Assembly: GCF_000316605.1 (NCBI RefSeq)
Contig: NC_019683.1
Location: 4,014,036 to 4,078,035 of the forward strand
Origin: [Leptolyngbya] sp. PCC 7376
GTDB taxonomy: Bacteria > Cyanobacteriota > Cyanobacteriia > Cyanobacteriales > MRBY01
Reading direction: 5' to 3'
DNA: 64,000 bases
Shown here in pieces: positions 4,050 to 63,557 of this stretch. The notes below the pieces were generated by a model that saw nothing but the letters and a program-made list of their open reading frames with translations, ran no database searches and was not told where the DNA came from. Position numbers and translations under genes: made by a program. Numbering within the stretch: the stretch's first letter is position 1; each line of letters opens with the position of its first letter.

Positions 4050-4382
4050 TTAAGATGGCGAAGACTCTAAAATCGCTGCATTAAAATCATCCCGGGTTGC
4101 AAAAATGGTAAAAACACGATCCATCTTTGTTAGCTCTAAAATCATTTGTACTTGCTCAGTTAAAGAACATAAATATAGTTCTTTCTCTCCAGCACGGACA
4201 AGCTTTAAGATTGCAACGAATGCGCCAATTCCCGAGCTATTCATAAATGTAATTTTGTTTAGATCAACCAAGATGACATCAACTGGCCCCTGAAGAATAT
4301 CAATAATCTGCTGCCTTAATTCATTTGTAGTGAGGCCGTCGAGAACGCCTTGAGGTTCAACAATCGTAATTTTTTTAGACAT
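4050..4382 (-). CDS. STAS-domain anti-sigma factor antagonist
   Basis: The 110-residue protein is a single STAS domain of the SpoIIAA/RsbV type. The motif FMNSSGIGAF at 46-55 carries the Ser that kinases of this family phosphorylate (Ser50 by alignment with SpoIIAA Ser58); the usual preceding Asp is Asn here. In partner switching the unphosphorylated STAS protein binds an HATPase anti-sigma protein, the kinase inactivates it, and a PP2C phosphatase reactivates it. The gene starts 67 bases after the stop of the cellulose-synthase-like gene on the same strand. That gene encodes just such an HATPase domain inside the synthase, so the two products are likely partners. That pairing is inference from position and domain type. 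Confidence 0.9.
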   Translation of the reverse strand: MSKKITIVEPQGVLDGLTTNELRQQIIDILQGPVDVILVDLNKITFMNSSGIGAFVAILKLVRAGEKELYLCSLTEQVQMILELTKMDRVFTIFATRDDFNAAILESSPS

Positions 4383-4449: not shown

Positions 4450-6834
4450 TCAATTATTATTTTTTGGTTGCCAATAAGCAGCTCTAATTACACTCCACAA
4501 TAAAGCTAAATGATAAATGCACCATACTGTATTAATAAGGTAGGTTGAGCTTGATAATTTAGTGCTTATGAATACTTGAATCCCTCCCCAGATCAAAGCC
4601 AAAATTGTGGCGATAAAGAATAAAATCTGAACAGGAATAAGTCTGAAATAAACACCAGATTGCCGTTGTTTTGGTGTGACTTTGAATTTCAGAGATTTGC
4701 CAGTAAAGACACTGGTCACTGCTTGGATCTGTAATGGGAAGAGGGCGATCGCATACTGTTCATTACGCCAGAGTTCACGCCAAGGAATCCCCCAACTGGC
4801 TAGCCAGAAGGTAATACGATTCAAAATGTAGGCTGGGACGAAATGCCACGCAAAATCTATACCAAACGTATTTACTGGAATTAAGCCTGTGGTTAGTGAA
4901 ACCAACGGACAAAGAAGCAATACCAAAACGAAAAAACCAGCAAAATAGCTATACATCGTCTGAAAATACTGCACGCGCTGGCTGAAGCTTAAGCCTGTTT
5001 TAAACAGAGGATTATCTCGCAAAAGTACTTGGATTGTTCCCTGAGCCCAGCGCAGTTTTTGCTGCAAAGTCGAACTCAGATCATCCGGAGCTAAACCCTC
5101 TGCTAACACTTCATCATGGTAGATCGAATACCATCCTTTGGAGTGGAGGCGCATAGCTGTATTCATATCTTCAGTGATACTAATACTCGATAGTCCCCCA
5201 ATCATTTCAAACTCTTCTAACTTTCGTTCATCAGCAGCATAGTCATCTGCAAAATGTTGCAAACCCATACGAATCAATGCTTCTCGTCTCAGTACTGCAT
5301 TAGTCCCTGTATAAAAGGCAGAGTTCATGCCATCTTTTCCTTGTTGGATTGGCCCATAAAAAACACGAGCATTATGACCAAATGGATCGTCAGATGGAAG
5401 GTTAGAAAAAGCTTGAGGAGTTTGGACGAATGCCACTTTGTTTAATTCATAATGACCTCGATCAACATTGAAGCGATAAAAATTTGGGATAACACGCTGT
5501 AAAAACTTAGTTTGCGGAATATGGTCTGCATCTAAAGTTAAAACGAGTTCACCATGGGTTTCACCACTAAAAATAGCATGGTTAATATTGCCTGCTTTCG
5601 CATGGTGGGGACGACCTTTTGGCTTTTTTCGAGCGATGTAACGACATCGAGGCAAGTCAATTAATCGTTGAGTATAGTTATTGACTTGTTTTTCTAATTG
5701 TTGAATTTCGCTGTTACAGATATCGGTTGTCGTGTGATGGTTTGGATTGCTAAGTAACAGTAATTCCCTCAGGCTATGAATATATCCTTGGTTTTGAGCA
5801 ATGCGATCTCGCTCAGTAGAAATAGTTTCTGACTCAAATTTTTTAATTAAAACTAAGCAATTCTGTTCATTATCAGTGCGCACATATGAAAAATAATCGA
5901 CGAGCTGACGAATAATGCCAAGACCTCGTCCATGTTCAGCCTCGACATCAACTTCTTCTTTCAAGTTTTGGAGATGAGCCTCTAGATCAAAAAAGCTTCC
6001 TTGATCCCAAATTTTTAGGATAAAGGCATGGTTAAAAAGAGAAAACTCGAGGTCTATTTTTTGATCTGGTGATAGATATTTATGGGCATGGGTAATGGCA
6101 TTATCTAAACCTTCTCCAAGAATAGTTTGACAAATAATCCAAGTCTTTTCTGAAACTTTGTTTGGGCGAAGCTGATTAAGCCAGTCCATGACATAGGCTA
6201 ATTCTTGTTTTTTGCTTGGGATGCTCAGTTGATAGGAATCTATAAATCCTTCTACTTCTACTAAATCTTTTTTGAGGATTCTGAGTTGATTAATACGAGT
6301 TTCACATCGATATTTTTGTTGGTTGATATGTTCAGCAGCATTCTTTACAGCTGGTGTTTTTAGATCTTCGAGACACAAGGTTGCGGTCATGTCTCTCATT
6401 TCAGGAGAGTTGCCATCATCAAGGATATACACCCGCAATTTTTCGGAAGGATAGTCCATTTTTAGGGCAGCTCTAGCGGTGAGCTCAACCATATCTGCTG
6501 GTTCGTTGTAGCAGGTGATGAAAATATCAACGGTGGGATAGTTTTCTGTCGGAAAGCTTGGGGTTAAGGCGGCTAAGCTTTTCGTGGTGCGCTTAATGGG
6601 CCGCCACAGGGAGTAGAAAAACATCACTCCCCCAAAAAACATATAGGTTTCTGCGCAAATGAGGGGCACAGCAAACCATAATGCCTGCATGTTTAATGAG
6701 TCTGTCCAGCGCCAATGTAGGTACCACACCCCGATAATGAGGTTAACGATCACCATATAGCGTAAGAGCAATGTGCGATCGCGTAGGGTAACGGTTTTAT
6801 TTTTCAGAGAAAGTTGTGGTTCTAGGGTGCTCAT
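4450..6834 (-). CDS. Cellulose-synthase-like GT2 with inserted anti-sigma HATPase domain
   Basis: The 794-residue membrane protein has N-terminal membrane segments (about 24-42 and 52-76) and a split GT2 catalytic domain. C-terminal membrane helices (about 630-650, 665-685, 728-752, 765-785) follow. GT2 processive motifs are complete: DDG 139-141, DAD 435-437, TED 554-556 and QxxRW 592-596. Between DDG and DAD lies an insert of roughly 260 residues. Its core (about 205-335) has the Bergerat ATP-fold boxes of RsbW/SpoIIAB kinases: N-box EGLDNAITHA at 241-250, G1 WDQG at 276-279 and G2 HGRGLGI at 301-307. No PilZ domain follows the transmembrane part, unlike BcsA. It probably polymerises a beta-glucan from UDP-glucose across the inner membrane. 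The embedded kinase would take part in partner switching with the downstream STAS protein. GT2 identity is secure; the polymer is not. Confidence 0.9.
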   Translation of the reverse strand: MSTLEPQLSLKNKTVTLRDRTLLLRYMVIVNLIIGVWYLHWRWTDSLNMQALWFAVPLICAETYMFFGGVMFFYSLWRPIKRTTKSLAALTPSFPTENYPTVDIFITCYNEPADMVELTARAALKMDYPSEKLRVYILDDGNSPEMRDMTATLCLEDLKTPAVKNAAEHINQQKYRCETRINQLRILKKDLVEVEGFIDSYQLSIPSKKQELAYVMDWLNQLRPNKVSEKTWIICQTILGEGLDNAITHAHKYLSPDQKIDLEFSLFNHAFILKIWDQGSFFDLEAHLQNLKEEVDVEAEHGRGLGIIRQLVDYFSYVRTDNEQNCLVLIKKFESETISTERDRIAQNQGYIHSLRELLLLSNPNHHTTTDICNSEIQQLEKQVNNYTQRLIDLPRCRYIARKKPKGRPHHAKAGNINHAIFSGETHGELVLTLDADHIPQTKFLQRVIPNFYRFNVDRGHYELNKVAFVQTPQAFSNLPSDDPFGHNARVFYGPIQQGKDGMNSAFYTGTNAVLRREALIRMGLQHFADDYAADERKLEEFEMIGGLSSISITEDMNTAMRLHSKGWYSIYHDEVLAEGLAPDDLSSTLQQKLRWAQGTIQVLLRDNPLFKTGLSFSQRVQYFQTMYSYFAGFFVLVLLLCPLVSLTTGLIPVNTFGIDFAWHFVPAYILNRITFWLASWGIPWRELWRNEQYAIALFPLQIQAVTSVFTGKSLKFKVTPKQRQSGVYFRLIPVQILFFIATILALIWGGIQVFISTKLSSSTYLINTVWCIYHLALLWSVIRAAYWQPKNNN

Positions 6835-7107: not shown

Positions 7108-8226
7108 ATGAGCCAAATGCAAGGGAGTACGCTGAGATATTTAGTCGTTGGATTAATGTTTTTTGTGATGTATGACTTGGTTGATGGGGGAATGGCTCAG
7201 GCTCAGGTTCGGAGGGTTAGTCGAGAACGTTTTTTTTATTTGGCAGCGCCTCAAAATTTGAATCCAGGTTTACGGGAGCAGCCCGTTGAAATAGAGGTGG
7301 AAGAGGAACCGACGATCGCCCCAGAGCTTGAACTTGATCAAGAGTCTGAAACTCCTACAGTGCCACTATGGAAGCCAGAATCAGTCACGGTGGACTTTAA
7401 AGATAATGTGAGCAATTTTGGGCAAGATAATCAGTTTATTGAGCCGACTGTTACTGGCATTCTACCGAATGGCGATCGCCTGAGCATTACAAGTGGCTTG
7501 AACCAATTTCAGCAGCCGGAGATAAATTCTGTTCAAAATATTCCCTTTAAACTGGACTGGGAAGGAGAAATTGCTGGTTTAGCAACAAGCATTGGTGGTG
7601 GCATTGACTGGTTTGATGAAGTGCCTCTCGCCCTAAATTTTCGTGCCCAGACTAGTGTCCCCATCGGCAAAAAAGCGAAATTATCGTTCCATATCGAGCA
7701 TAGCCCCTATAAATTCAACGCGGAAACCATCCAGAATGAAATCAAATCTTGGCGTTACGGCCCCAATTTATTCTGGCAAATCTCTCCCGATACAACTTTT
7801 TTTAGTTTGGTGCGCTGGGGTCGCTATAACGATGGCAATCATGAGCAACAATCCTTTAGCCGCCTAGAGCATACCCGTGGTGAATTTAAGGTCGCAGCCA
7901 ATCTATTTAATTGGCGATACCGAGAAGACAATGAATCAGTGAGTGGTTATTTTTCCCCCTTAGATTTTTTGGTCGCTAATGGCGAAATTGTTTGGGAAAA
8001 AGACATTTTTGATTGGTTATCCTGTCGAGCCGCGGCCTCTGCTGGTCAACAACATTCCGAAGGGGAATGGACTTTTGCCTATGGCTACAACGGTAAATGC
8101 ACCACAAAGGTTAGTGACAATGTGGAGTGGGATCTCGGATACAACTTCAGCAATATCCCCGGCGAAGGAGGCAACAGCATTTTTAATGACCGGACTTGGA
8201 GTAGTCAATTGCGTGCCAAGTTTTAG
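7108..8226 (+). CDS. Secreted outer-membrane beta-barrel protein, BcsC-barrel-like
   Basis: The 372-residue protein has a signal peptide (hydrophobic 10-25, likely cleavage after AQA near 34). An acidic Pro/Glu-rich stretch (about 60-95) is followed by alternating-pattern strands and a terminal Phe, typical of outer-membrane barrels recognised by the BAM machinery. GYFSPLDFLVANGEIVWEK resembles the GYFSPQRY-type strand in the C-terminal porin part of BcsC, the cellulose export channel. The TPR scaffold of BcsC is missing. Divergent transcription from the cellulose-synthase-like gene supports a role in polysaccharide export. The BcsC resemblance is by eye. The stop overlaps the stop of the next, convergent gene by four bases. 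Confidence 0.7.
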   Translation: MSQMQGSTLRYLVVGLMFFVMYDLVDGGMAQAQVRRVSRERFFYLAAPQNLNPGLREQPVEIEVEEEPTIAPELELDQESETPTVPLWKPESVTVDFKDNVSNFGQDNQFIEPTVTGILPNGDRLSITSGLNQFQQPEINSVQNIPFKLDWEGEIAGLATSIGGGIDWFDEVPLALNFRAQTSVPIGKKAKLSFHIEHSPYKFNAETIQNEIKSWRYGPNLFWQISPDTTFFSLVRWGRYNDGNHEQQSFSRLEHTRGEFKVAANLFNWRYREDNESVSGYFSPLDFLVANGEIVWEKDIFDWLSCRAAASAGQQHSEGEWTFAYGYNGKCTTKVSDNVEWDLGYNFSNIPGEGGNSIFNDRTWSSQLRAKF

Positions 8227-9596
8227 CTTTCTGATTCCTTTGGAGTTTGAGCGGTGTTGAGACGTTGCAGTATGGATTGGTTACCAAGAGCTTTGTAATA
8301 AAGGATTTCGAGGATTAAACCGTTGGTATTGCCTGTCAAAATAGTATTGATATTGCCTGTTTCCTCATAAATACCAGCATAAAATCCATCACCATTGGGG
8401 TCTTGCAAATTTTGGGTCGCTTTAATGAGTTCGAGAGAGTATGTTTTTTTAGGGAATAGGTAATACCAACCAAAAGCAGCTTTTGTGCTGAGGGTACGGA
8501 GTTGCGGGTAAGGTTCGTTGTCTTCGGTAATCACTGCCCAAGGTTCACCGTTGGCAAACAGAGTACTGTAGAGAAAATGCGGAGCTTGATCTATATTGTC
8601 TTCGGATACAGCAGTTAAAAAGCCGGTTTCTTGATAGCGATTTTCTTGGGCTTGAAATAGAGATTCTGCATGTTGTGCCATGGTTTCATCCCAACCGAAT
8701 TCGATCGCTTCAAGGATATAGGACTCACTCACGACGTAGTTATTGGCATTCGTGCTTTCGTAATCGCGGCTATCCACAGGAATTTCAATGCCGGATATGG
8801 TTACCATCTCCATCGGTTCGAGGGCGATCGCCTCCTCTACCTGAAAGCCCCAGAGTTCATAGCCGCGTGCCGCATATTCTTCATAACCGAGCCGTCCTTC
8901 TTGGAGTAATGTGATGCTGCCATCTTCGGTGATCGCCGCGCCATAGAGCTGACCATCTTTAATAGAACGAGGCAGTTGCCAACTGGAAATAATCCCAGAA
9001 ATCCAGTCTTCATATTGGGGATGGCAGGAGCGAATAATATGTAGCGATGTCAGTAGTCGCCCCAAGTCTAAGGCTGACCATCCAATCCCTTCAGTCGTTG
9101 GTTGATTGCCATAGTCCACCATCTCTGCGGTAGCGCTGTTGTAAACCTTATTCGGTAAGGCATTGTCAACAAGGGGAAGCTCACCAAGGGTATTTAGAAA
9201 TTGATTCAGTTGGACATCAAAGGTTGCTTGGTCAATCATGCCGAACCATCGCACGGCATTCAGGGCCATCAGGTAGTTGCCTTGGTCCCAGAGAGTCCCT
9301 GACGGAAATTGATCTGCCGCATTGGTGAAACCTGTTTCTGATTGGTAGTTATTGACGAAATATTGCCAAGCCGCCGTTGCATATACTTGTTCTTTCTGAG
9401 TGAGTGGGCTTTGCAAATCGCCACAAATAGCATTACTCAACTCGGTCTCTTCAGCAGCGACAGGACTTACTTCTTCTTCTTCTTGGAGAGCTATCGGTGC
9501 TGGCGTTTGGGTACAGGCGATTAGGGTATTGAAACTGAGACTACCAAGACAAAGGGATATTAATGATTTACGAGAAATGTATTTGAAAAAATTCAT
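8223..9596 (-). CDS. DUF3131-type lipoprotein
   Basis: The 457-residue protein has a lipoprotein signal with lipobox LIAC at 25-28, so it should be lipid-anchored. The rest is one copy of a long domain that I assign to DUF3131. Diagnostic stretches are AWQYFVNNYQSETGF, LPNKVYNSATAEMVDYG, GRLGYEEYAARGYELWGF, DGEPW-like NGEPWAVIT and NGLILEILYYK. Such alpha/alpha-toroid-like domains occur near cellulose-synthase-like genes and may act on glucans, but no reaction is established for this subgroup. The gene lies 11 bases after the stop of the triple-domain protein and clearly shares its operon. It is about 60% alike by eye to the first unit of that protein, so the pair arose by duplication. Confidence 0.85.
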   Translation of the reverse strand: MNFFKYISRKSLISLCLGSLSFNTLIACTQTPAPIALQEEEEVSPVAAEETELSNAICGDLQSPLTQKEQVYATAAWQYFVNNYQSETGFTNAADQFPSGTLWDQGNYLMALNAVRWFGMIDQATFDVQLNQFLNTLGELPLVDNALPNKVYNSATAEMVDYGNQPTTEGIGWSALDLGRLLTSLHIIRSCHPQYEDWISGIISSWQLPRSIKDGQLYGAAITEDGSITLLQEGRLGYEEYAARGYELWGFQVEEAIALEPMEMVTISGIEIPVDSRDYESTNANNYVVSESYILEAIEFGWDETMAQHAESLFQAQENRYQETGFLTAVSEDNIDQAPHFLYSTLFANGEPWAVITEDNEPYPQLRTLSTKAAFGWYYLFPKKTYSLELIKATQNLQDPNGDGFYAGIYEETGNINTILTGNTNGLILEILYYKALGNQSILQRLNTAQTPKESES

Positions 9597-9607: not shown

Positions 9608-12600
9608 TTAGTTGGGATTGCTGATGGGGCTGCCTTTGAGTTTGTAGAGCAGGCTTTCGAGGATGATGGCGTTGGTATTGATATTCAGGGAATGGTTTAT
9701 CCCTAATTTTTCATTTTCATATTTCCCAGCGAAAAAACCTTTCTGGTGATCGCCTAAGGTTTGGGCCGTGCGGAGCAGTTGTTGACAATAATCATCTTCA
9801 GGAAACAAACTAGCGAGGGCAAAAGCAGCTTTTGTGCTGAGAAACCGTAATTCGGGATGGGATTTTCCGCTGACAGTTTTAATTGACCAAGGTTCACCAT
9901 CGGCATAGGCACTGTAATAGAGAAAATAAGGCTTGCGGTCTAGTGAATCTTCATTAATTGCTGTGAGAAATCCGGTGCGTTCGGCACGATTCTTTTGAGC
10001 TTGTAGCAAGGCTCGAATTTGAGTTTGGGCTTGGTCTGTCCAGCCTATTTCCATGCCCCAGAGTGTATAGGGATCGTTAACGAGATAATTACTTGCGCCA
10101 GAGGATTTTCTATTGCGCTGATCCACTTCTAGTGCAATGTTTTCAACGCGGACTGTTTTGGTTGGCGAATGATGCAATGCATTGGTGGCAGTAATTCCCG
10201 ATTTTTGAAGACTTTCAGCTGCATATTGCTCATAGCCTAAACGACCTTCCTGCCAATATTGCAAGCCATTTTTTCCCCAACCGCTCCCCTGTAACCAACC
10301 ATCTTTTTCCAGTTGACTTAGATCGTAGCGGGCAATAATTTTATCTAGGCGATCGCCAAATTCTGGGTAGTGAGTTTTCAGGGTTTGGAGGGCAAGGAGA
10401 TATCGAGATAAATCCAGCACTGACCAACCACTCCGCCCACCTGGATCGGACTTATTACTGAGAGTACGCATCTGAGCTGTGGTAGTGCTGTATGCCTTAT
10501 TCGGTAAATTCGTTTTGGGTAATGGCAGAGTTTCGAGGGTATTGAGGAGGGTAATTAGTTTTATTTGGAAATCCTGCTGCCCAATCAAGCCCAATTGATA
10601 GGCGGCATGAAGACCAAAAATAGCGCTGCCTTGATCCCACCATGTCGTCCAATCATAGTTATCAACAGAATTCACCAGCCCGGTATTGCCCTGCCAATTA
10701 TTAGCAATGTATTGCCATGCTTGTTTGGCAGCAATTTGATCTTGGGCATCGGGTATCTGTTCAATGCTCGTCAACGGGAGTGCAATTTGATTAAGTGTTT
10801 TTTTTTGAGCCGCGGCTGAGGGTTTGGTTGTCGCAATGTGGGGGAGAAGGGCGATCGCCTTAGAGAGATTAGAAGGCATTTCCGAAACCATCAGAGTATC
10901 TTGTTTGTCTTGTGGTTGATTCACTACAGCCACAGTATTTGTAAAACTGTTATTTGCTTGAGTCTCATTCGCTTTGAGATCCCAATATTGATTTTCCGCA
11001 GAACGTTTAAGTTCAATAGCTGGGGTTCGTTGGGTAGGTAATCCTAAGCCATCACGATCGCCGTCTCGAATCGCTTTCCACCAAGGGCTACTGAGCGTTT
11101 CGTGGGGCTGAATAATCGGTTGGCGGCCAATATTTTTGTGCAGTAATGCTTGCAAAATAAGGCTATTGGTACTGCTCGTTAGCCCAAAAGTCCGTTGGCC
11201 AGTATTTTCATAAAAGCCTTCGTAATAGCCCAAAATTGGATTATATAAATCGAGAGTTGCTTGCCATAGTTCTTGACCATAATCATCGCCCGCAAATAGC
11301 GTTTGGTAGGCAAAGGCGATCGCCGTACTAACCACACGACCTTGTTCCACTAGATTGCCATCATCGTCAACTGCGGCCCAAGGCTCCCCATCGGCCACAA
11401 GGGTACTGTGCACGATGTAGGGTTCATTTTGAATAAGCGTGGTTCCAGAAGCGCTGAATATACCAGTTTGCTCATAGCGTTTGGCTTCGGCTCGATAAAT
11501 ACTTTCGATTAAATTGCGGCTTTGGGGATCAAATCCAAATTCCAAGCCATACAAAATAAACGGGGTGCTAATAGTGTTGAGCTGTTCATCTTGCTGACGT
11601 TGTTCTAATTGCGATCGCTCAACCGGAATTTTTTCGTCAGAAATTTTTTTTGTGACATATTCACCGCTAATGGATGATCGTTGCGCATCAAATCCCCATA
11701 GCTGAAATCCCCGTGCGGCATATTCTTCATAGCCGAGAATCTGGGCTGGCTGTACCTGAATTTGATGTCTACCTCGACTATTTTTTGCTAAAGTCGCATT
11801 TGAAATTTTGCCATCACGGACAACCCGGAGATATGACCAATCTAAAACCAATTGGTCAATAGCCTCTTCATACTCGGGATGACAGGTTTTCAGGACATGA
11901 AGTGATGCCAAGAGACGACCGATATCTAAGCCTGACCAACCATTATTTTCGCGATCCGAATTGCCACCATAATCAATTGGTTCGAGGGTAAGAGTGTTGT
12001 AAGCGCGGTAGGGCAACTCCCCAGCAAATAGCTCCATTTCCTGCAAAGCACCCAAAAGATGTCGCACTCGCTCATCAAAGGTTTTTGGGGAAATCACGTT
12101 CAGAGTCCGTGCCGCATGGAGGGCAGCCAAATAATCACCGATTCCCCACACTGTTGAACCATCAAGATCGCTTCGATCTGGCACTAACCCTGTCTGTTCA
12201 TAATTGGCATCAAAATATTGCCAGGCGATCGCCGCATATCGAGCATCGGTAACACTAATTTTTTTTTTCGGAAGGGGACAGCTACTGGATTTTGCAGCAT
12301 CCACAGGATCAATGGCCGCAACCTCTATGCCTGAATCATTGGAGGCAGAGACTTGTTGAGTAGAAGCGACTAGAGGAGGTGAATCTATTGCTTCGGGAGA
12401 ATTATTGGCCTGAGTTGTGGGAGGTGGCGGTAAATCTATACTTTGGCTAACTGCTGGAGTAGGGGTGGCGATCGCCGTGGATTGAGGGGCACTATTTTCT
12501 CCGAGCATGGGCTGATAACCCCGCGCCTTGTAATACAAAATTTCGAGAATTAGGCCATTCGTGTTGCCCGTCAAAATATCGTTAAGAGGGGGCTGCGGAT

Positions 12601-13801
12601 CGTACAATCCCGACTCATAAATTCCTGCATAATAGCCACGCCCGGAATTGGTTGTGTCTTTGACATGGTCGAAAATTTGCTGAGCATAAGGATCATCAGG
12701 ATAAACATAATGCCAACCAAATGCCGACTTAGAACTTAACGTCCGTAGCTCCGGGTGTAACTCGTTACTCTCAGTGATTACAGCCCAAGGTTCGCCATTA
12801 GAATAAACCGTGCTGTAAAGAAAATAAGGCGGCTGATTGATATTATCCTCAGACACTGCCGTCAAAAGACCTGTATCTTCATAGCGTCGCTTCTGTGCTT
12901 CAAAAACCCGGCGAGCATATTCCGCTTGATCGCCCTGTAATCCGAATTCAATTGCATCCAAAATATAGGATTCACTGACGACATAATTATTTGCATTGGT
13001 CTCGAAATAATCTCTCTGATCTACTGGAATCTGTAGACCATAAATATCGACAAATTTGAACGGATCATAGGCGATCGCCGCCGGTGCATTAAATCCCCAG
13101 AGGGCATAACCACGCGCTGCATATTCCTCATAGCCGAGACGTCCTTCCTGGACTTTTAACGTTGAGCCATCGGGTAAAACCGTTGCGCCGTAAAGCATGT
13201 CATTTTCGAGGGAAGCCGAAATATTCCAACTCGCAACAATCCCCGCCATCCAATCTGAATATTGCGGATGACAAGTGCGAATAATATGGAACGCCGCCAA
13301 AATACGTCCGATATCGAGAGCCGACCAACCAATACCTCGCTCGATAGGATTATTGCCATAGTCAACAATTTCTTTTGTTGCGCTGTTATAGACCTTATTT
13401 GGCAACGTATCTTCAAATAGTCGTAACTCCGACAAACTCGTTAGGAACTGGTTTAAGCGGCTATCAAATTCCCCGTGGTCAATCAATCCCATCCAAAGAG
13501 CTGCATTCATCGCCGTTAAATAATTTCCCAAATCCCATAACGTGCCAGAAGGGTAACCTCCCGCAGAATTAGATAATCCTGTCTCTGGCTGCACATTATC
13601 CACAAAATAATTCCATGCGGACTGAGCATAGTTTTGTTCCTCTGGTGTCAATGGCTGGGCGATCGCTCCACACATTGTTGCTGGCGTTTGGGCTGGTGCT
13701 GGAGAAACCTGAATAAAACTAAGCCAACAAGAAAGAAATAAACCAACTGCGATCCAAGAACAAAACTTTTTCCATCGACGACTAATACTAAGTAAAGACA
13801 T
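9608..13801 (-). CDS. Secreted protein with three tandem DUF3131 domains
   Basis: The 1397-residue protein has a signal peptide (hydrophobic 16-32, cleavage near PAQTPA at about 35-41). It contains three repeated units: about 45-445, 510-930 and 1015-1390. Each unit starts with an AWxYF/I motif and a W-G/D-x-G-x-Y/A-x-x-x-L-x-A stretch. It then has LPNKVYNSAT or a variant, GRLGYEEYAARG or GRLGYEQYAAE, ADGEPW and a closing NxNxxILxxLLYK. Linker 1 (about 446-508) is rich in Pro, Ser, Thr and Ala; linker 2 is also low-complexity. Unit 1 resembles the neighbouring lipoprotein most. The protein is probably periplasmic or extracellular and bound to or acting on the polymer made by the nearby synthase. 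Function beyond the domain name is not known to me. Confidence 0.85.
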   Translation of the reverse strand: MSLLSISRRWKKFCSWIAVGLFLSCWLSFIQVSPAPAQTPATMCGAIAQPLTPEEQNYAQSAWNYFVDNVQPETGLSNSAGGYPSGTLWDLGNYLTAMNAALWMGLIDHGEFDSRLNQFLTSLSELRLFEDTLPNKVYNSATKEIVDYGNNPIERGIGWSALDIGRILAAFHIIRTCHPQYSDWMAGIVASWNISASLENDMLYGATVLPDGSTLKVQEGRLGYEEYAARGYALWGFNAPAAIAYDPFKFVDIYGLQIPVDQRDYFETNANNYVVSESYILDAIEFGLQGDQAEYARRVFEAQKRRYEDTGLLTAVSEDNINQPPYFLYSTVYSNGEPWAVITESNELHPELRTLSSKSAFGWHYVYPDDPYAQQIFDHVKDTTNSGRGYYAGIYESGLYDPQPPLNDILTGNTNGLILEILYYKARGYQPMLGENSAPQSTAIATPTPAVSQSIDLPPPPTTQANNSPEAIDSPPLVASTQQVSASNDSGIEVAAIDPVDAAKSSSCPLPKKKISVTDARYAAIAWQYFDANYEQTGLVPDRSDLDGSTVWGIGDYLAALHAARTLNVISPKTFDERVRHLLGALQEMELFAGELPYRAYNTLTLEPIDYGGNSDRENNGWSGLDIGRLLASLHVLKTCHPEYEEAIDQLVLDWSYLRVVRDGKISNATLAKNSRGRHQIQVQPAQILGYEEYAARGFQLWGFDAQRSSISGEYVTKKISDEKIPVERSQLEQRQQDEQLNTISTPFILYGLEFGFDPQSRNLIESIYRAEAKRYEQTGIFSASGTTLIQNEPYIVHSTLVADGEPWAAVDDDGNLVEQGRVVSTAIAFAYQTLFAGDDYGQELWQATLDLYNPILGYYEGFYENTGQRTFGLTSSTNSLILQALLHKNIGRQPIIQPHETLSSPWWKAIRDGDRDGLGLPTQRTPAIELKRSAENQYWDLKANETQANNSFTNTVAVVNQPQDKQDTLMVSEMPSNLSKAIALLPHIATTKPSAAAQKKTLNQIALPLTSIEQIPDAQDQIAAKQAWQYIANNWQGNTGLVNSVDNYDWTTWWDQGSAIFGLHAAYQLGLIGQQDFQIKLITLLNTLETLPLPKTNLPNKAYSTTTAQMRTLSNKSDPGGRSGWSVLDLSRYLLALQTLKTHYPEFGDRLDKIIARYDLSQLEKDGWLQGSGWGKNGLQYWQEGRLGYEQYAAESLQKSGITATNALHHSPTKTVRVENIALEVDQRNRKSSGASNYLVNDPYTLWGMEIGWTDQAQTQIRALLQAQKNRAERTGFLTAINEDSLDRKPYFLYYSAYADGEPWSIKTVSGKSHPELRFLSTKAAFALASLFPEDDYCQQLLRTAQTLGDHQKGFFAGKYENEKLGINHSLNINTNAIILESLLYKLKGSPISNPN

Positions 13802-14509: not shown

Positions 14510-16585
14510 GTGAGTATTTCTCCTCTACCGATGCCTGATTCTTCACCTGAAGTTTTAATCATTGACGATGTTCGTCTCTCAAGAACATTCTTGCGACATG
14601 TTCTAAAACAAGCAAACTACCGAGTCTCAGAAGCCGAAAATGGCGCAGAAGGTATTGCTTTATTTAAAGAGCGATCGCCTTCATTGGTTTTAGTAGATGG
14701 CCTTATGCCAGAGGTTGATGGCTTTGAATGCTGCCGCACGATCAGGCAACTTCCCGGTGGCGAAGACATTCCTATTTTGATGGTGACCTCCCTCGAAGAT
14801 ACCGAATCCGTCAATAAAGCCTTCCAAGCTGGGGCGAGTGATTACATTACAAAACCGATCCATCCCTCCGTACTCCTCGGTCGGATGCGTTGCATGCTGA
14901 AGTCTCTCCACGCCATGCAAGAACTGCGAAATAGCGAAGAAAAATATCGTTCCCTTGTTACCAGTCTTCAGGAAGTTTTATTTCAGCTCACACCAGATGG
15001 AGAAATCATCTTCATCAATCCCATTTGGTACGACATTATGGGCTACAGTCCCATCGAAACAATTGGCGCGCAAATTCTGAACTTTATCCACCCCATTGAA
15101 CACAAGCGCAACACAGCAAAAATTCAACTCACTAGCAAAAACAAAGATCAGTGTTTCAGATACACAACGCGATTCATTACAAAACAGAAAGAGATTCGGT
15201 GGGTCGAAGTACAAATTTGTGGTAATGCTGATCCACAAACAGGTGAACTAATCAGAATTGCTGGCAGACTTTACGACATTACAGAAAGAGCCTTAAGCGA
15301 AAAATATCGCCGTCTAGAATATACCGTTAATCGAATTCTTTCCCATTCCGAAGATATTGATTTGGCAATTCGTCGTGTTTTGCAAGTAATCAGTGGTAAC
15401 TCAGAAACTCCTTTTGCTGAGTATTGGTCATTAGACGAAAGTAGCCAAGAATTAAGTAGCTCCACTTATTGGCATTTAAGAAATGATGCCTATAATGATT
15501 TTTCTGGTTCATCTATTAAGTTTTACCTCAAAGACTGGATGCAAAGTGTCCATGATATTACGTCATATATCGAAGAAATCAGAGCAGAGCAAGCAGTTGC
15601 TGCATCAAAAAACAAATCTTCCCACCCTCCTTTTGACCGGTGGCGCTGTGTTCAACAGTGCGTGGTTAGTCATGGTACACAAACTCTGGGTCTAATGGTA
15701 TTTTGGAACGACAAAAAAAATAAAATGGACGATACTTTTTCGATGGTATTAGAAATTTTAGGAAAGCAATTAGGACAGTATCTCAAACGCAAAGAAGCAG
15801 AACAAGAATTAAAGAAAAAGAATGATTTATTACAACGGGAATTAAATCAAGCTGCTCGTTATGTCGAGTCGTTACTACCACAGCCTGAGGCTCAAGAATC
15901 ACAACATTGTTCGGTACAGATTGATACTTTATTTCAACCTTCAAATGCTCTTGGTGGGGATGTATTTGACTATACTTGGCTCGATTCAGATAATTTGATG
16001 TTTTATGTGCTGGATGTTGCTGGCCATGGTGTTAAACCTGCATTACTATCAGTCTCAATTTTGAATATTTTGCGACGGCAAGGCTACTCTAATATTGATT
16101 TTTATGAGCCAGAAATTGTACTCACTGCTTTAAATCGTTTATTCCAAATGAGTGAGAGTGGTGATGATTATTTTTCAATGTGGTATGGCATCTACAATCA
16201 TTCAACTCGTGTCTTGAAATATGCTTCTGCAGGTCATCCTCAAGGGCTATTAATTGTTGCTGACGAAGATAATGAAGAGCACCAAATTAAAGAATTAAGT
16301 ACTGATAATATTGCAGTCGGGTTGTTTTCTGATTTTCCTTTTGAGGCAGCATCAGTGGAAGTGCCATTAGATAGTCATTTATTTATTTATAGTGATGGTG
16401 TGTATGAATTTTTTGTAGATAAGCACCAAGAAATGTTTGGGTTAGAAAATTGGAAAGATTTGATTTTGACTTATATGCAATCGAAACCAGCAACATTAAA
16501 GTCATTATTTCAACAAATTAATCATCTGAATTATGGTTCCACTTTGGGTGATGACTGTTCCATTATGGAGATAAGTTTTGGTTGA
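14510..16585 (+). CDS. Response regulator phosphatase, REC-PAS-GAF-PP2C (RsbU/SpoIIE type)
   Basis: The 691-residue cytoplasmic protein has four parts. The receiver (about 13-125) has IIDD, phospho-acceptor Asp in LVLVDGLMP and the Lys of ITKP. A PAS domain (about 140-262), a GAF-like domain (about 270-425) and a short coiled coil precede a PP2C phosphatase domain (about 465-690). Metal-binding acidic motifs LGGDVFDY, DVAGHG, YSDGVYEF and GDDCS are all present, so the phosphatase looks active. Such proteins dephosphorylate STAS antagonists when their receiver is phosphorylated. The likely substrate here is the STAS protein encoded about 10 kb away at the other end of the polysaccharide locus. 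The start is GTG 14510, or ATG 14531 (MPDSSPEV); neither has a strong ribosome site. Confidence 0.9.
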   Translation: MSISPLPMPDSSPEVLIIDDVRLSRTFLRHVLKQANYRVSEAENGAEGIALFKERSPSLVLVDGLMPEVDGFECCRTIRQLPGGEDIPILMVTSLEDTESVNKAFQAGASDYITKPIHPSVLLGRMRCMLKSLHAMQELRNSEEKYRSLVTSLQEVLFQLTPDGEIIFINPIWYDIMGYSPIETIGAQILNFIHPIEHKRNTAKIQLTSKNKDQCFRYTTRFITKQKEIRWVEVQICGNADPQTGELIRIAGRLYDITERALSEKYRRLEYTVNRILSHSEDIDLAIRRVLQVISGNSETPFAEYWSLDESSQELSSSTYWHLRNDAYNDFSGSSIKFYLKDWMQSVHDITSYIEEIRAEQAVAASKNKSSHPPFDRWRCVQQCVVSHGTQTLGLMVFWNDKKNKMDDTFSMVLEILGKQLGQYLKRKEAEQELKKKNDLLQRELNQAARYVESLLPQPEAQESQHCSVQIDTLFQPSNALGGDVFDYTWLDSDNLMFYVLDVAGHGVKPALLSVSILNILRRQGYSNIDFYEPEIVLTALNRLFQMSESGDDYFSMWYGIYNHSTRVLKYASAGHPQGLLIVADEDNEEHQIKELSTDNIAVGLFSDFPFEAASVEVPLDSHLFIYSDGVYEFFVDKHQEMFGLENWKDLILTYMQSKPATLKSLFQQINHLNYGSTLGDDCSIMEISFG

Positions 16586-41012: not shown

Positions 41013-41960
41013 TAGCAGCGAAGGAGAAGGTTAGGACATAGAACAGAAGGCTATTCTGATGGCATCGAACAAATCCTCAGTCTTCTTGATGAGCTTACTT
41101 ACCTCCTTCTTTAACCTCCCCCAAAACTTCTCTATCTTGTTCAGGTGTGGTGAGTAGGGTGGCAAAAATATCACTTCACATCCTGCCTTCGCCACCAATG
41201 TTTGTATTCTTTCCTTTGGATGAACACTGGCATTATCCAGAATAATAATTTGACCCGGAATCAACTCTGGCACTAAGCAATCCTCTACCCATTGGCAAAC
41301 TAAGGCGCTGTTGGCATAGCCCTCAAATACCATCGGTGCTATCTGCCTCTCCCTCTCGCCATCCTCCAATCACGCTAACTCGTTCTGTACGATGACCTAA
41401 CTTCTCTGCGATAAACCTCTCTGACTTATGGCAGTAGCCATACCCATAATCTAAGGTATTATCAAATCCACTTTCATCGATATATACGAGTCGTTCTTGG
41501 CCATACTGCTTCAGTTGTGCCACAAATGCTTTTTCTAATTCTTTATCTCTCTCTTGATATCGATAGGTCTTTTTTTTCGAGTAAATTCAATTTTCCGTAG
41601 AGCTTCACGTCTGGATGCATCACTAATAGACTCTGGCCATTTCTCCGCCATTTCCTTCTGGGTTAGATGCCCATATTCCTCTGCAAAAGCACGAAAAGCA
41701 TCTAGATCATTAATCTTCGGTTGAGGGCCTCGACGGTAATCTGTCTTCGGAGCGACTGAACCGATTTTCTCTCGTCGTTTCAGCCACAGGTCTAGCGTAT
41801 TTCGGCTAATACCAAAGAAGCGACAGATATCACTTTTTCGTTCACCTTTATCGAAGGCGGCAACAGCTTTTAGGCGTAAATCAAGACTATGGGGAGCAGG
41901 CATGGCATCTATGTTTATTGCTTCTATCCTATTCTGTCTTAACCCACTCCTTGCCTGCTA
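41013..41960. mobile_element. IS630-family insertion sequence, copy 1 (intact ends, frameshifted gene)
   Basis: The 948-bp element has inverted ends starting TAGCAG at both sides with about five mismatches in 26 bases. A TA duplication lies at 41011-41012 and 41961-41962, as usual for IS630. Its sequence is nearly identical to the copy at 62621-63557 on the opposite strand. Confidence 0.92.
41031..41903 (-). pseudogene. IS630 transposase, copy 1, disrupted by a one-base insertion
   Basis: The HTH part (41903-41535) matches copy 2 residue for residue. The DDE part starts with DESGFDNTLDYGYGY. An extra C at 41346-41347 relative to copy 2 turns GGWREGEQIAPMVF into GGWREGEADSTDGI and stops. The downstream frame resumes at IAPMVFEGYAN and keeps the remaining catalytic region (DNASVHPKE, PHLNKIEKFWGRLK). 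The copy cannot make full transposase unless the shift is bypassed. Confidence 0.88.
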
Positions 41961-62620: not shown

Positions 62621-63557
62621 GGAGTGGGTTAAGACAGAATAGGATAGAAGCAATAAACATAGATGCCATGCCTGCTCCCCATAGTCTTGATTTACGCCTA
62701 AAAGCTGTTGCCGCCTTCGATAAAGGTGAACGAAAAAGTGATATCTGTCGCTTCTTTGGTATTAGCCGAAATACGCTAGACCTGTGGCTGAAACGACGAG
62801 AGAAAATCGGTTCAGTCGCTCCGAAGACAGATTACCGTCGAGGCCCTCAACCGAAGATTAATGATCTAGATGCTTTTCGTGCTTTTGCAGAGGAATATGG
62901 GCATCTAACCCAGAAGGAAATGGCGGAGAAATGGCCAGAGTCTATTAGTGATGCATCCAGACGTGAAGCTCTACGGAAAATTGAATTTACTCGAAAAAAA
63001 AGACCTATCGATATCAAGAGAGAGATAAAGAATTAGAAAAAGCATTTGTGGCACAACTGAAGCAGTATGGCCAAGAACGACTCGTATATATCGATGAAAG
63101 TGGATTTGATAATACCTTAGATTATGGGTATGGCTACTGCCATAAGTCAGAGAGGTTTATCGCAGAGAAGTTAGGTCATCGTACAGAACGAGTTAGCGTG
63201 ATTGGAGGATGGCGAGAGGGAGAGCAGATAGCACCGATGGTATTTGAGGGCTATGCCAACAGCGCCTTAGTTTGCCAATGGGTAGAGGATTGCTTAGTGC
63301 CAGAGTTGATTCCGGGTCAAATTATTATTCTGGATAATGCCAGTGTTCATCCAAAGGAAAGAATACAAACATTGGTGGCGAAGGCAGGATGTGAAGTGAT
63401 ATTTTTGCCACCCTACTCACCACACCTGAACAAGATAGAGAAGTTTTGGGGGAGGTTAAAGAAGGAGGTAAGTAAGCTCATCAAGAAGACTGAGGATTTG
63501 TTCGATGCCATCAGAATAGCCTTCTGTTCTATGTCCTAACCTTCTCCTTCGCTGCTA
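62621..63557. mobile_element. IS630-family insertion sequence, copy 2 (intact gene, left end damaged)
   Basis: The sequence matches copy 1 (41013-41960) on the opposite strand. Homology starts only at GGAGTGGG (62621); the outer TAGCAGGCAA of the left repeat is replaced by unrelated sequence. The right end is intact and flanked by TA at 63558-63559. It is probably immobile but can still make transposase. Confidence 0.88.
62668..63539 (+). CDS. IS630-family transposase, made by -1 frameshift
   Basis: The HTH part starts at ATG 62668 (MPAPHSLDLRLKAVAAFDKG) and has DICRFFGISRNTLDLWLKRR. At a run of eight A residues (62994-63001) a -1 shift joins it to YQERDKELEKAFVAQLKQYG and the DDE domain: YIDESGFDN, ILDNASVHPKE, PYSPHLNKIEKFWGRLKKEV. 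Without the shift, a 122-residue HTH protein results. The DDE region is intact, unlike copy 1. Confidence 0.87.

Follow-up and report, generated by a model that had tools for sequence, protein, structure and literature searches.

A cellulose-synthase-like glycosyltransferase with an embedded SpoIIAB/RsbW-type kinase domain and a co-changed STAS neighbor in [Leptolyngbya] sp. PCC 7376

In this study, we report a fused reading frame in a 64,000-nucleotide stretch of the genome of the cyanobacterium [Leptolyngbya] sp. PCC 7376 (NC_019683.1, positions 4,014,036 to 4,078,035), here called the window. The frame, at positions 4450 to 6834, encodes a cellulose-synthase-like protein (CesA) of glycosyltransferase family 2 (GT2) in which a HATPase domain of the SpoIIAB/RsbW kinase type is embedded, and this observation was confirmed. 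The embedded kinase, together with a neighboring STAS protein that has changed with it, suggests that sugar-chain synthesis is switched directly and not through genes. The best reading of the sequence data is that the fused synthase would itself serve as the kinase of a partner switch. We find it reasonably probable that the whole is a beta-glycan synthase with a built-in partner-switch kinase, for which the STAS protein would serve as ligand and substrate and a SpoIIE-type phosphatase would provide the reset. The grounds are the domain itself, its residues for ATP and kinase function, the locus, a single clade of insertion, purifying selection and a reciprocal residue change; from these we infer binding, phosphorylation, gating and the sign of the gating.

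The Fused Synthase and Its Kinase Domain

The 794-residue product matched both the cellulose synthase and the GT2 models of Pfam, and the D, DxD, TED and QxxRW motifs as well as membrane helices of the BcsA/CesA type were all present. A preliminary description, made from the sequence alone, had placed the four GT2 motifs intact at residues that were verified here (Table 1). The score with TIGR03030, the equivalog of the UDP-forming cellulose synthase, was 305 of 699 bits, below the cut-off. The frame probably encodes a processive beta-glycan synthase with cellulose as its product.

No PilZ match was found in the protein (Pfam, E up to 0.1), as the same description had stated, nor in the complete genome (E up to 0.001), in a search whose control was positive in 5 of 14 genomes. 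Given the lack of a PilZ match in the genome, the usual module for cyclic di-GMP (c-di-GMP) would not control the fused synthase, and control by c-di-GMP through PilZ was rejected. The genome contains 34 GGDEF matches against 0 for PilZ, which leaves room for c-di-GMP routes of other kinds.

The inserted domain matched PF13581 (HATPase_c_2) at residues 206–331 with an E-value of 6.4e-18 and 65.4 bits, against a curated cut-off of 27.4, and the HATPase boxes EGLDNAITHA (241–250), WDQG (276–279) and HGRGLGI could be read. The earlier claim of complete HATPase boxes within the synthase is therefore upheld, and the hidden Markov model search then proposed as its check gave a significant match. The RsbW equivalogs NF003144 and TIGR01924 scored weakly (28.7 of 145 and 23.3 of 155 bits), so that the insert belongs to the domain family and not to RsbW itself. 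In a Foldseek search with the AlphaFold2 model, the HATPase part resembled the SpoIIAB structures 1l0o and 1th8. Residues E241, N245, D277, G279 and G304, which correspond to the catalytic Glu, the N-box Asn, the D-x-G motif and the G-rich lid, are conserved in all 22 inserted kinases compared.

In the model, the kinase domain is predicted to cap a coiled-coil hairpin that lies between GT2 regions U1 and U2. Relatives without the insert have the hairpin and no kinase; the model of one of them, poor overall (predicted local distance difference test, pLDDT, 63.7) and better for helices 161–201 and 238–261, has a similar outgoing helix. The distance from DDG to DAD is 296 residues in the fused synthase vs. 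158–163 in seven HATPase-less relatives, and thus the HATPase adds about 135–140 residues inside a pre-existing hairpin. The preliminary description had given an insert of about 260 residues; there is extra sequence between the two motifs, but that size merges the hairpin of the family with the HATPase.

Relatives and Origin

A first comparison with 59 other genomes gave eight close orthologues, one inserted (L005) and seven uninserted (L006–L012), the latter aligning to about residues 1–200 and 348–794 of the fused synthase; no close orthologue was found in five genomes of the same genus (best E 5e-32). A census was then made of 86 loci (the window and 88 loci, L034–L121, minus the repeat records L103, L106 and L114), with neighbors recorded on the downstream side only. 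Among the matches listed, 23 loci were fused (the window and 22 others) and 63 were plain; L077 duplicates the record L038, and the plain label of fragment L116, which begins past the insertion site, is unsafe. Three fused frames are imperfect, as L060 is frame-broken, L063 ends early at 563 residues and L059 ends at a contig edge. The loci from the genome scan, at least 80 among the matches listed, over-represent fused forms. When 386 cyanobacterial genomes (G000 included) were sampled evenly, the synthase was present in 18 at E ≤ 1e-120, two of the 18 being fused. Pleurocapsa sp. MO_192.B19 has two fused synthases that differ from each other (L051, L053).

Most plain loci have the synthase first, followed by STAS, a REC-SpoIIE phosphatase in convergent orientation and a separate kinase of about 140 residues. 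Among the matches listed, this kinase aligns whole to about residues 192–197 through 333–337 of the fused synthase. Where 4 kb or more of downstream sequence was available, 50 of the 59 plain loci and 0 of the 18 fused ones had the kinase no more than 6 kb downstream (Fisher p 2.9e-11, for genomes that are related and not independent; 49 of 58 when L077 is left out). A STAS gene lay near the synthase in 15/19 fused and 55/60 plain loci, and a PP2C phosphatase within 6 kb downstream in 8/18 and 52/59, respectively. One neighboring hybrid histidine kinase contained the Pfam domains CHASE3, PAS, GAF, HisKA, receivers and Hpt.

In a tree of the synthase computed without the insert columns, from 28 selected plain rows and all fused rows but L060 and L063 (21 of 23), the fused forms made up one clade (21 rows; Shimodaira-Hasegawa-like approximate likelihood-ratio support, SH-aLRT, 99, quick method) that spans Leptolyngbyaceae, Nodosilineaceae, Acaryochloridaceae, Pleurocapsaceae, Geminocystaceae, Calotrichaceae and others. 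The inserted kinases were also a single clade (22 rows, support 100/98) in a kinase tree that comprised 22 inserted kinases (all but L060), 19 selected operon kinases and 23 others, the set used as well for the column comparison below. The ratio of nonsynonymous to synonymous substitution rates (dN/dS) in the inserted domain was 0.07–0.30 in 9 of 11 pairs, the other two being saturated, and the domain is under purifying selection.

Reciprocal Change in STAS and Kinase

The STAS gene lies on the same strand as the synthase, 67 bp downstream. Its product matched PF01740 (E 1.8e-18), scored above the cut-off of TIGR00377 and aligned to SpoIIAA structures. We screened the aligned columns for positions that separate the partners of fused loci from all others with no shared letter. 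A single column of 106 did so in STAS, residue 48, directly before the putative phosphoserine, which is N in 16/16 readable proteins beside inserted synthases and D in 76/76 others. The latter comprise 60 beside plain synthases, with the repeat L077 counted and L039 and L040 contributing two apiece, and 16 from other modules; the STAS of L058, the seventeenth beside an inserted synthase, is truncated and could not be read at this residue. The following Ser (S49), aligned to the phosphorylation site of SpoIIAA, is kept in 16/16. Likewise, one column of 135 separated the kinases fully, residue 244, directly before the N-box Asn, which is D in 22/22 inserted and T, A, I or S in 42/42 other kinases. 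Control clades had 0–5 fully separating columns for STAS (five clades) and 0–3 for the kinase (three clades). Within six genomes, D at residue 244 was present in 7/7 inserted and 0/16 other kinases (L145 read by eye).

Alignment to SpoIIAA structures and RsbW places both residues at the phosphotransfer site. In the published model of Slr1861-Ssr1600, T46 and D58 are interface residues (PMC12329169; this and the other papers cited are used through the accessible parts of their text), and by our own mapping T46 would correspond to kinase residue 244 and D58 to STAS residue 48. This reciprocal change is the strongest new evidence for a pairing of STAS and kinase, and the neighboring STAS protein is very probably the cognate partner of the embedded kinase.

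The change predicts that, where a fused synthase has no adjoining STAS gene, an N-type STAS is encoded at another site of the genome, and in three such genomes that were searched the best STAS found elsewhere was of the N type (3/3). That of Adonisia (G419; L170:4559-6366), 37% identical, is separated from the fused synthase by about 12 kb and adjoins a REC-SpoIIE phosphatase, with no kinase match within the 14 kb searched. For two N-type copies of Acaryochloris no kinase match was found within the 11 and 12 kb searched, and four neighbors of one of them are housekeeping-type genes.

Neighboring Genes

The features of the locus are provided in Table 1. Judged by their domains, kinase, STAS and putative phosphatase together are a complete partner-switch set around the synthase. 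The predicted barrel protein, with relatives in 37 of the 88 other loci searched, is a candidate pore for glycan export. A literature search for DUF3131 gave no paper.

Table 1. Coordinates of the fused synthase, its parts and neighboring features in the window.
Feature	Position	Strand	Basis
GT2 cellulose-synthase-like protein (CesA) with embedded HATPase, 794 aa	4450–6834	minus	Single open frame, Pfam
DDG motif, residues 139–141	6412–6420	minus	Sequence read
DAD motif, residues 435–437	5524–5532	minus	Sequence read
TED motif, residues 554–556	5167–5175	minus	Sequence read
QxxRW motif (QKLRW), residues 592–596	5047–5061	minus	Sequence read
Hairpin outgoing helix (coiled coil), residues 161–199	6238–6354	minus	AlphaFold2 model
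Embedded SpoIIAB/RsbW-type HATPase, about residues 196–338	5821–6249	minus	Pfam (206–331), standalone kinases, Foldseek
N-box EGLDNAITHA, residues 241–250, D244 diagnostic of inserted kinases	6085–6114	minus	Alignment
Hairpin returning helices, residues 341–392	5659–5814	minus	AlphaFold2 model
STAS anti-anti-sigma protein, 110 aa, N48-S49 diagnostic	4050–4382	minus	PF01740, TIGR00377, SpoIIAA structures
Predicted outer-membrane barrel	7108–8226	plus	BCSC_C match below cut-off
DUF3131 protein, conserved locus member	8223–9596	minus	Pfam, locus comparison
Triple-DUF3131 protein, conserved locus member	9608–13801	minus	Pfam, locus comparison
Response regulator-PAS-SpoIIE (PP2C) phosphatase, probable STAS-P phosphatase	14510–16585	plus	Pfam, equivalents near other synthases

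Elsewhere in the window, identical transposase-like frames of 122 residues were located at 41535–41903 (minus) and 62668–63036 (plus), with several further transposase-like frames between 38 and 64 kb, all of these labels being given by eye. A second HATPase_c_2 fusion is present in the same genome (C1:2156036-2159449; L002:655-1920), a 421-residue protein in which a kinase is joined to two rhodanese stretches; it is divergent from a REC-SpoIIE phosphatase gene, and similar frames of 429–443 residues occur in five genomes of the same genus.

Proposed Mechanism and Alternatives

In the mechanism that we propose, unphosphorylated STAS would dock on the embedded kinase, shift the hairpin and alter the activity of the synthase. 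The kinase would then phosphorylate Ser49 of STAS, which would depart, and the SpoIIE-type phosphatase, with its receiver and PAS input, would restore it. In plain relatives, the kinase, a separate protein, would bind to the hairpin in trans. We think it likely that the partner switch controls synthesis directly, and slightly favor activation over inhibition of the synthase by STAS binding. The view of the synthase as a partner-switching component, already advanced in the preliminary description, is well supported by the adjoining STAS gene, the SpoIIE phosphatase of the locus, the relatives with separate kinases and the reciprocal change. The further suggestion of that description, that ATP or STAS bound to the insert could open or close the active site, is a hypothesis. 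We give about an even chance to a broader proposal, by which the switch would act on the enzyme itself, independently of any sigma factor and with a synthase that bears no c-di-GMP receptor domain, the U1-U2 hairpin of these cyanobacterial synthases would be a general docking site for the switch protein, and one lineage would have embedded the kinase permanently and exchanged an acidic residue with STAS, insulating the pair from other partner switches.

Several observations weigh against the proposed mechanism. STAS is missing nearby in 4/19 fused loci and the phosphatase within 6 kb downstream in 10/18, while that of the window is 7.7 kb from the synthase and on its other side. The 12 STAS matches in four genomes comprised six of N type, five of D type and one not read, and the N-type proteins L163 and L165 have no assigned kinase, so that N48 is not exclusive to the pair. 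The reciprocal change sits on the stem of one clade and counts as a single event, not many. D244 resembles the N-box of GyrB, and hydrolysis of ATP without phosphorylation of STAS would thus be possible. The inserted kinases are not nested among the operon kinases, and a joint clade is not rejected (approximately unbiased, AU, test, p 0.163), so that relocation of a neighboring kinase gene into the synthase is at most a possible origin. The published Slr1861-Ssr1600 model bonds D58 to D42 (residue 240 here), not to T46, and S59 to E43, the residue from which our mapping of T46 was counted (PMC12329169). Finally, the Asp of the G1 box (277 here), kept in inserted and other kinases, is Ser in 15/19 operon kinases, including L035, L036, L038 and L064. 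Their ATP binding may thus be unusual, which weakens the picture of a kinase docking in trans, and they may act as binders of STAS or of the hairpin rather than as ordinary kinases. For this reason, our confidence in the proposed mechanism and in the broader proposal was lowered slightly.

One fused synthase (genome G011, L034:8582-10936) has degenerate DDG, HAKAGN, TED and QxxRW motifs and yet retains an intact kinase N-box, a STAS gene and a phosphatase gene; DUF3131 was not found within the 20 kb searched. It is a possible pseudo-synthase retained for signaling, and as such it also speaks against direct control and for an outward direction, in which the synthase would be a sensor whose working state sets the kinase and with it the phosphorylation of STAS, and STAS would act elsewhere, for example on a sigma factor or a second enzyme. 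The kinase of canonical systems does govern a separate target, and two Acaryochloris genomes encode their best N-type STAS apart from the synthase. However, we regard outward signaling as unlikely, given that STAS lies near the synthase in 15/19 fused and 55/60 plain loci, that the relatives with separate kinases have the same module grouped around the synthase, and that SypA/SypE of Vibrio is a precedent for a STAS protein governing polysaccharide below transcription (PMC10120452).

It is decidedly improbable, in our opinion, that the embedded domain is a dimerization or ATP-sensing module in which the N and D changes mark lost phosphotransfer with retained binding. Domains of the SpoIIAB type dimerize, and ATPases of the GyrB type also have D before the N-box Asn. 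Both substitutions are at the phosphotransfer site, and the frequent absence of the G1 Asp from the plain-locus kinases could mean that kinase activity is dispensable in the family. Against this, E241, the equivalent of the catalytic Glu, is invariant (22/22), the Ser after STAS residue 48 is always kept (16/16), and a phosphatase is found within 6 kb downstream in 8/18 fused loci. An artefact, such as the joining of two genes by a sequencing error that the preliminary description had considered, or a recent non-functional fusion has a probability close to nil and was rejected: the architecture is odd and L060 and L063 are broken or short among the 22 other fused frames, but the fusion recurs in these 22 further loci across many families, in a single clade and with dN/dS well below 1.

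Relation to Known Systems

A synthase with an embedded kinase was not found in the literature searched, which mostly does not cover subscription papers, and this agrees with the earlier statement that the architecture was undescribed. A review of cyanobacterial cellulose divides the synthases into a PilZ type and a PCR (plant-conserved region) type, with alr3757, Npun_F1469 and SYNPCC7002_A2118 as examples of the latter (PMC12430437). The fused synthase has the marks of the PCR type, the absence of PilZ and an extra U1-U2 region, which for the PCR-type proteins is called plant-PCR-like in the review, so that the likeness is one of description; neither "ATPase" nor "anti-sigma" nor "insert" appears in the accessible text (PMC12430437). 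The c-di-GMP-activated BcsA shares the GT2 fold, the motifs and the membrane helices, but here PilZ is absent, the kinase is on a hairpin within the catalytic domain and the equivalog cut-off is missed.

With the SpoIIAB/RsbW, SpoIIAA/RsbV and SpoIIE/RsbU systems, the locus shares the kinase domain family, a STAS protein with a (D/N)SSG site and a SpoIIE-type phosphatase, whereas here the kinase is inside a membrane glycosyltransferase and the switch would act on an enzyme instead of a sigma factor. Slr1861/Ssr1600 of Synechocystis, the icfG operon and HmpU/V/W of Nostoc are likewise cyanobacterial HATPase-STAS-PP2C partner switches, but with free-standing kinases and with SigC or unknown outputs (PMC12329169, PMC8256260). 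In Anabaena All4160, a partner-switch domain is also joined to a glycosyltransferase; it is, however, an N-terminal STAS domain, and a kinase insert is not mentioned in the accessible text (PMC8256260). SypE of Vibrio fischeri is a REC-linked serine kinase/phosphatase that governs the STAS protein SypA, which in turn governs polysaccharide below transcription through a target given as unknown (PMC10120452, PMC4517449); the kinase is fused to a phosphatase there and to the synthase here.

If our reading is true, partner switching would gate an enzyme directly, and cellulose-type synthases would have a route of control independent of PilZ. It would also offer a candidate answer to the question in Vibrio of what SypA targets below transcription (PMC10120452), and the residue exchange would provide an unusually clean and testable swap of specificity.
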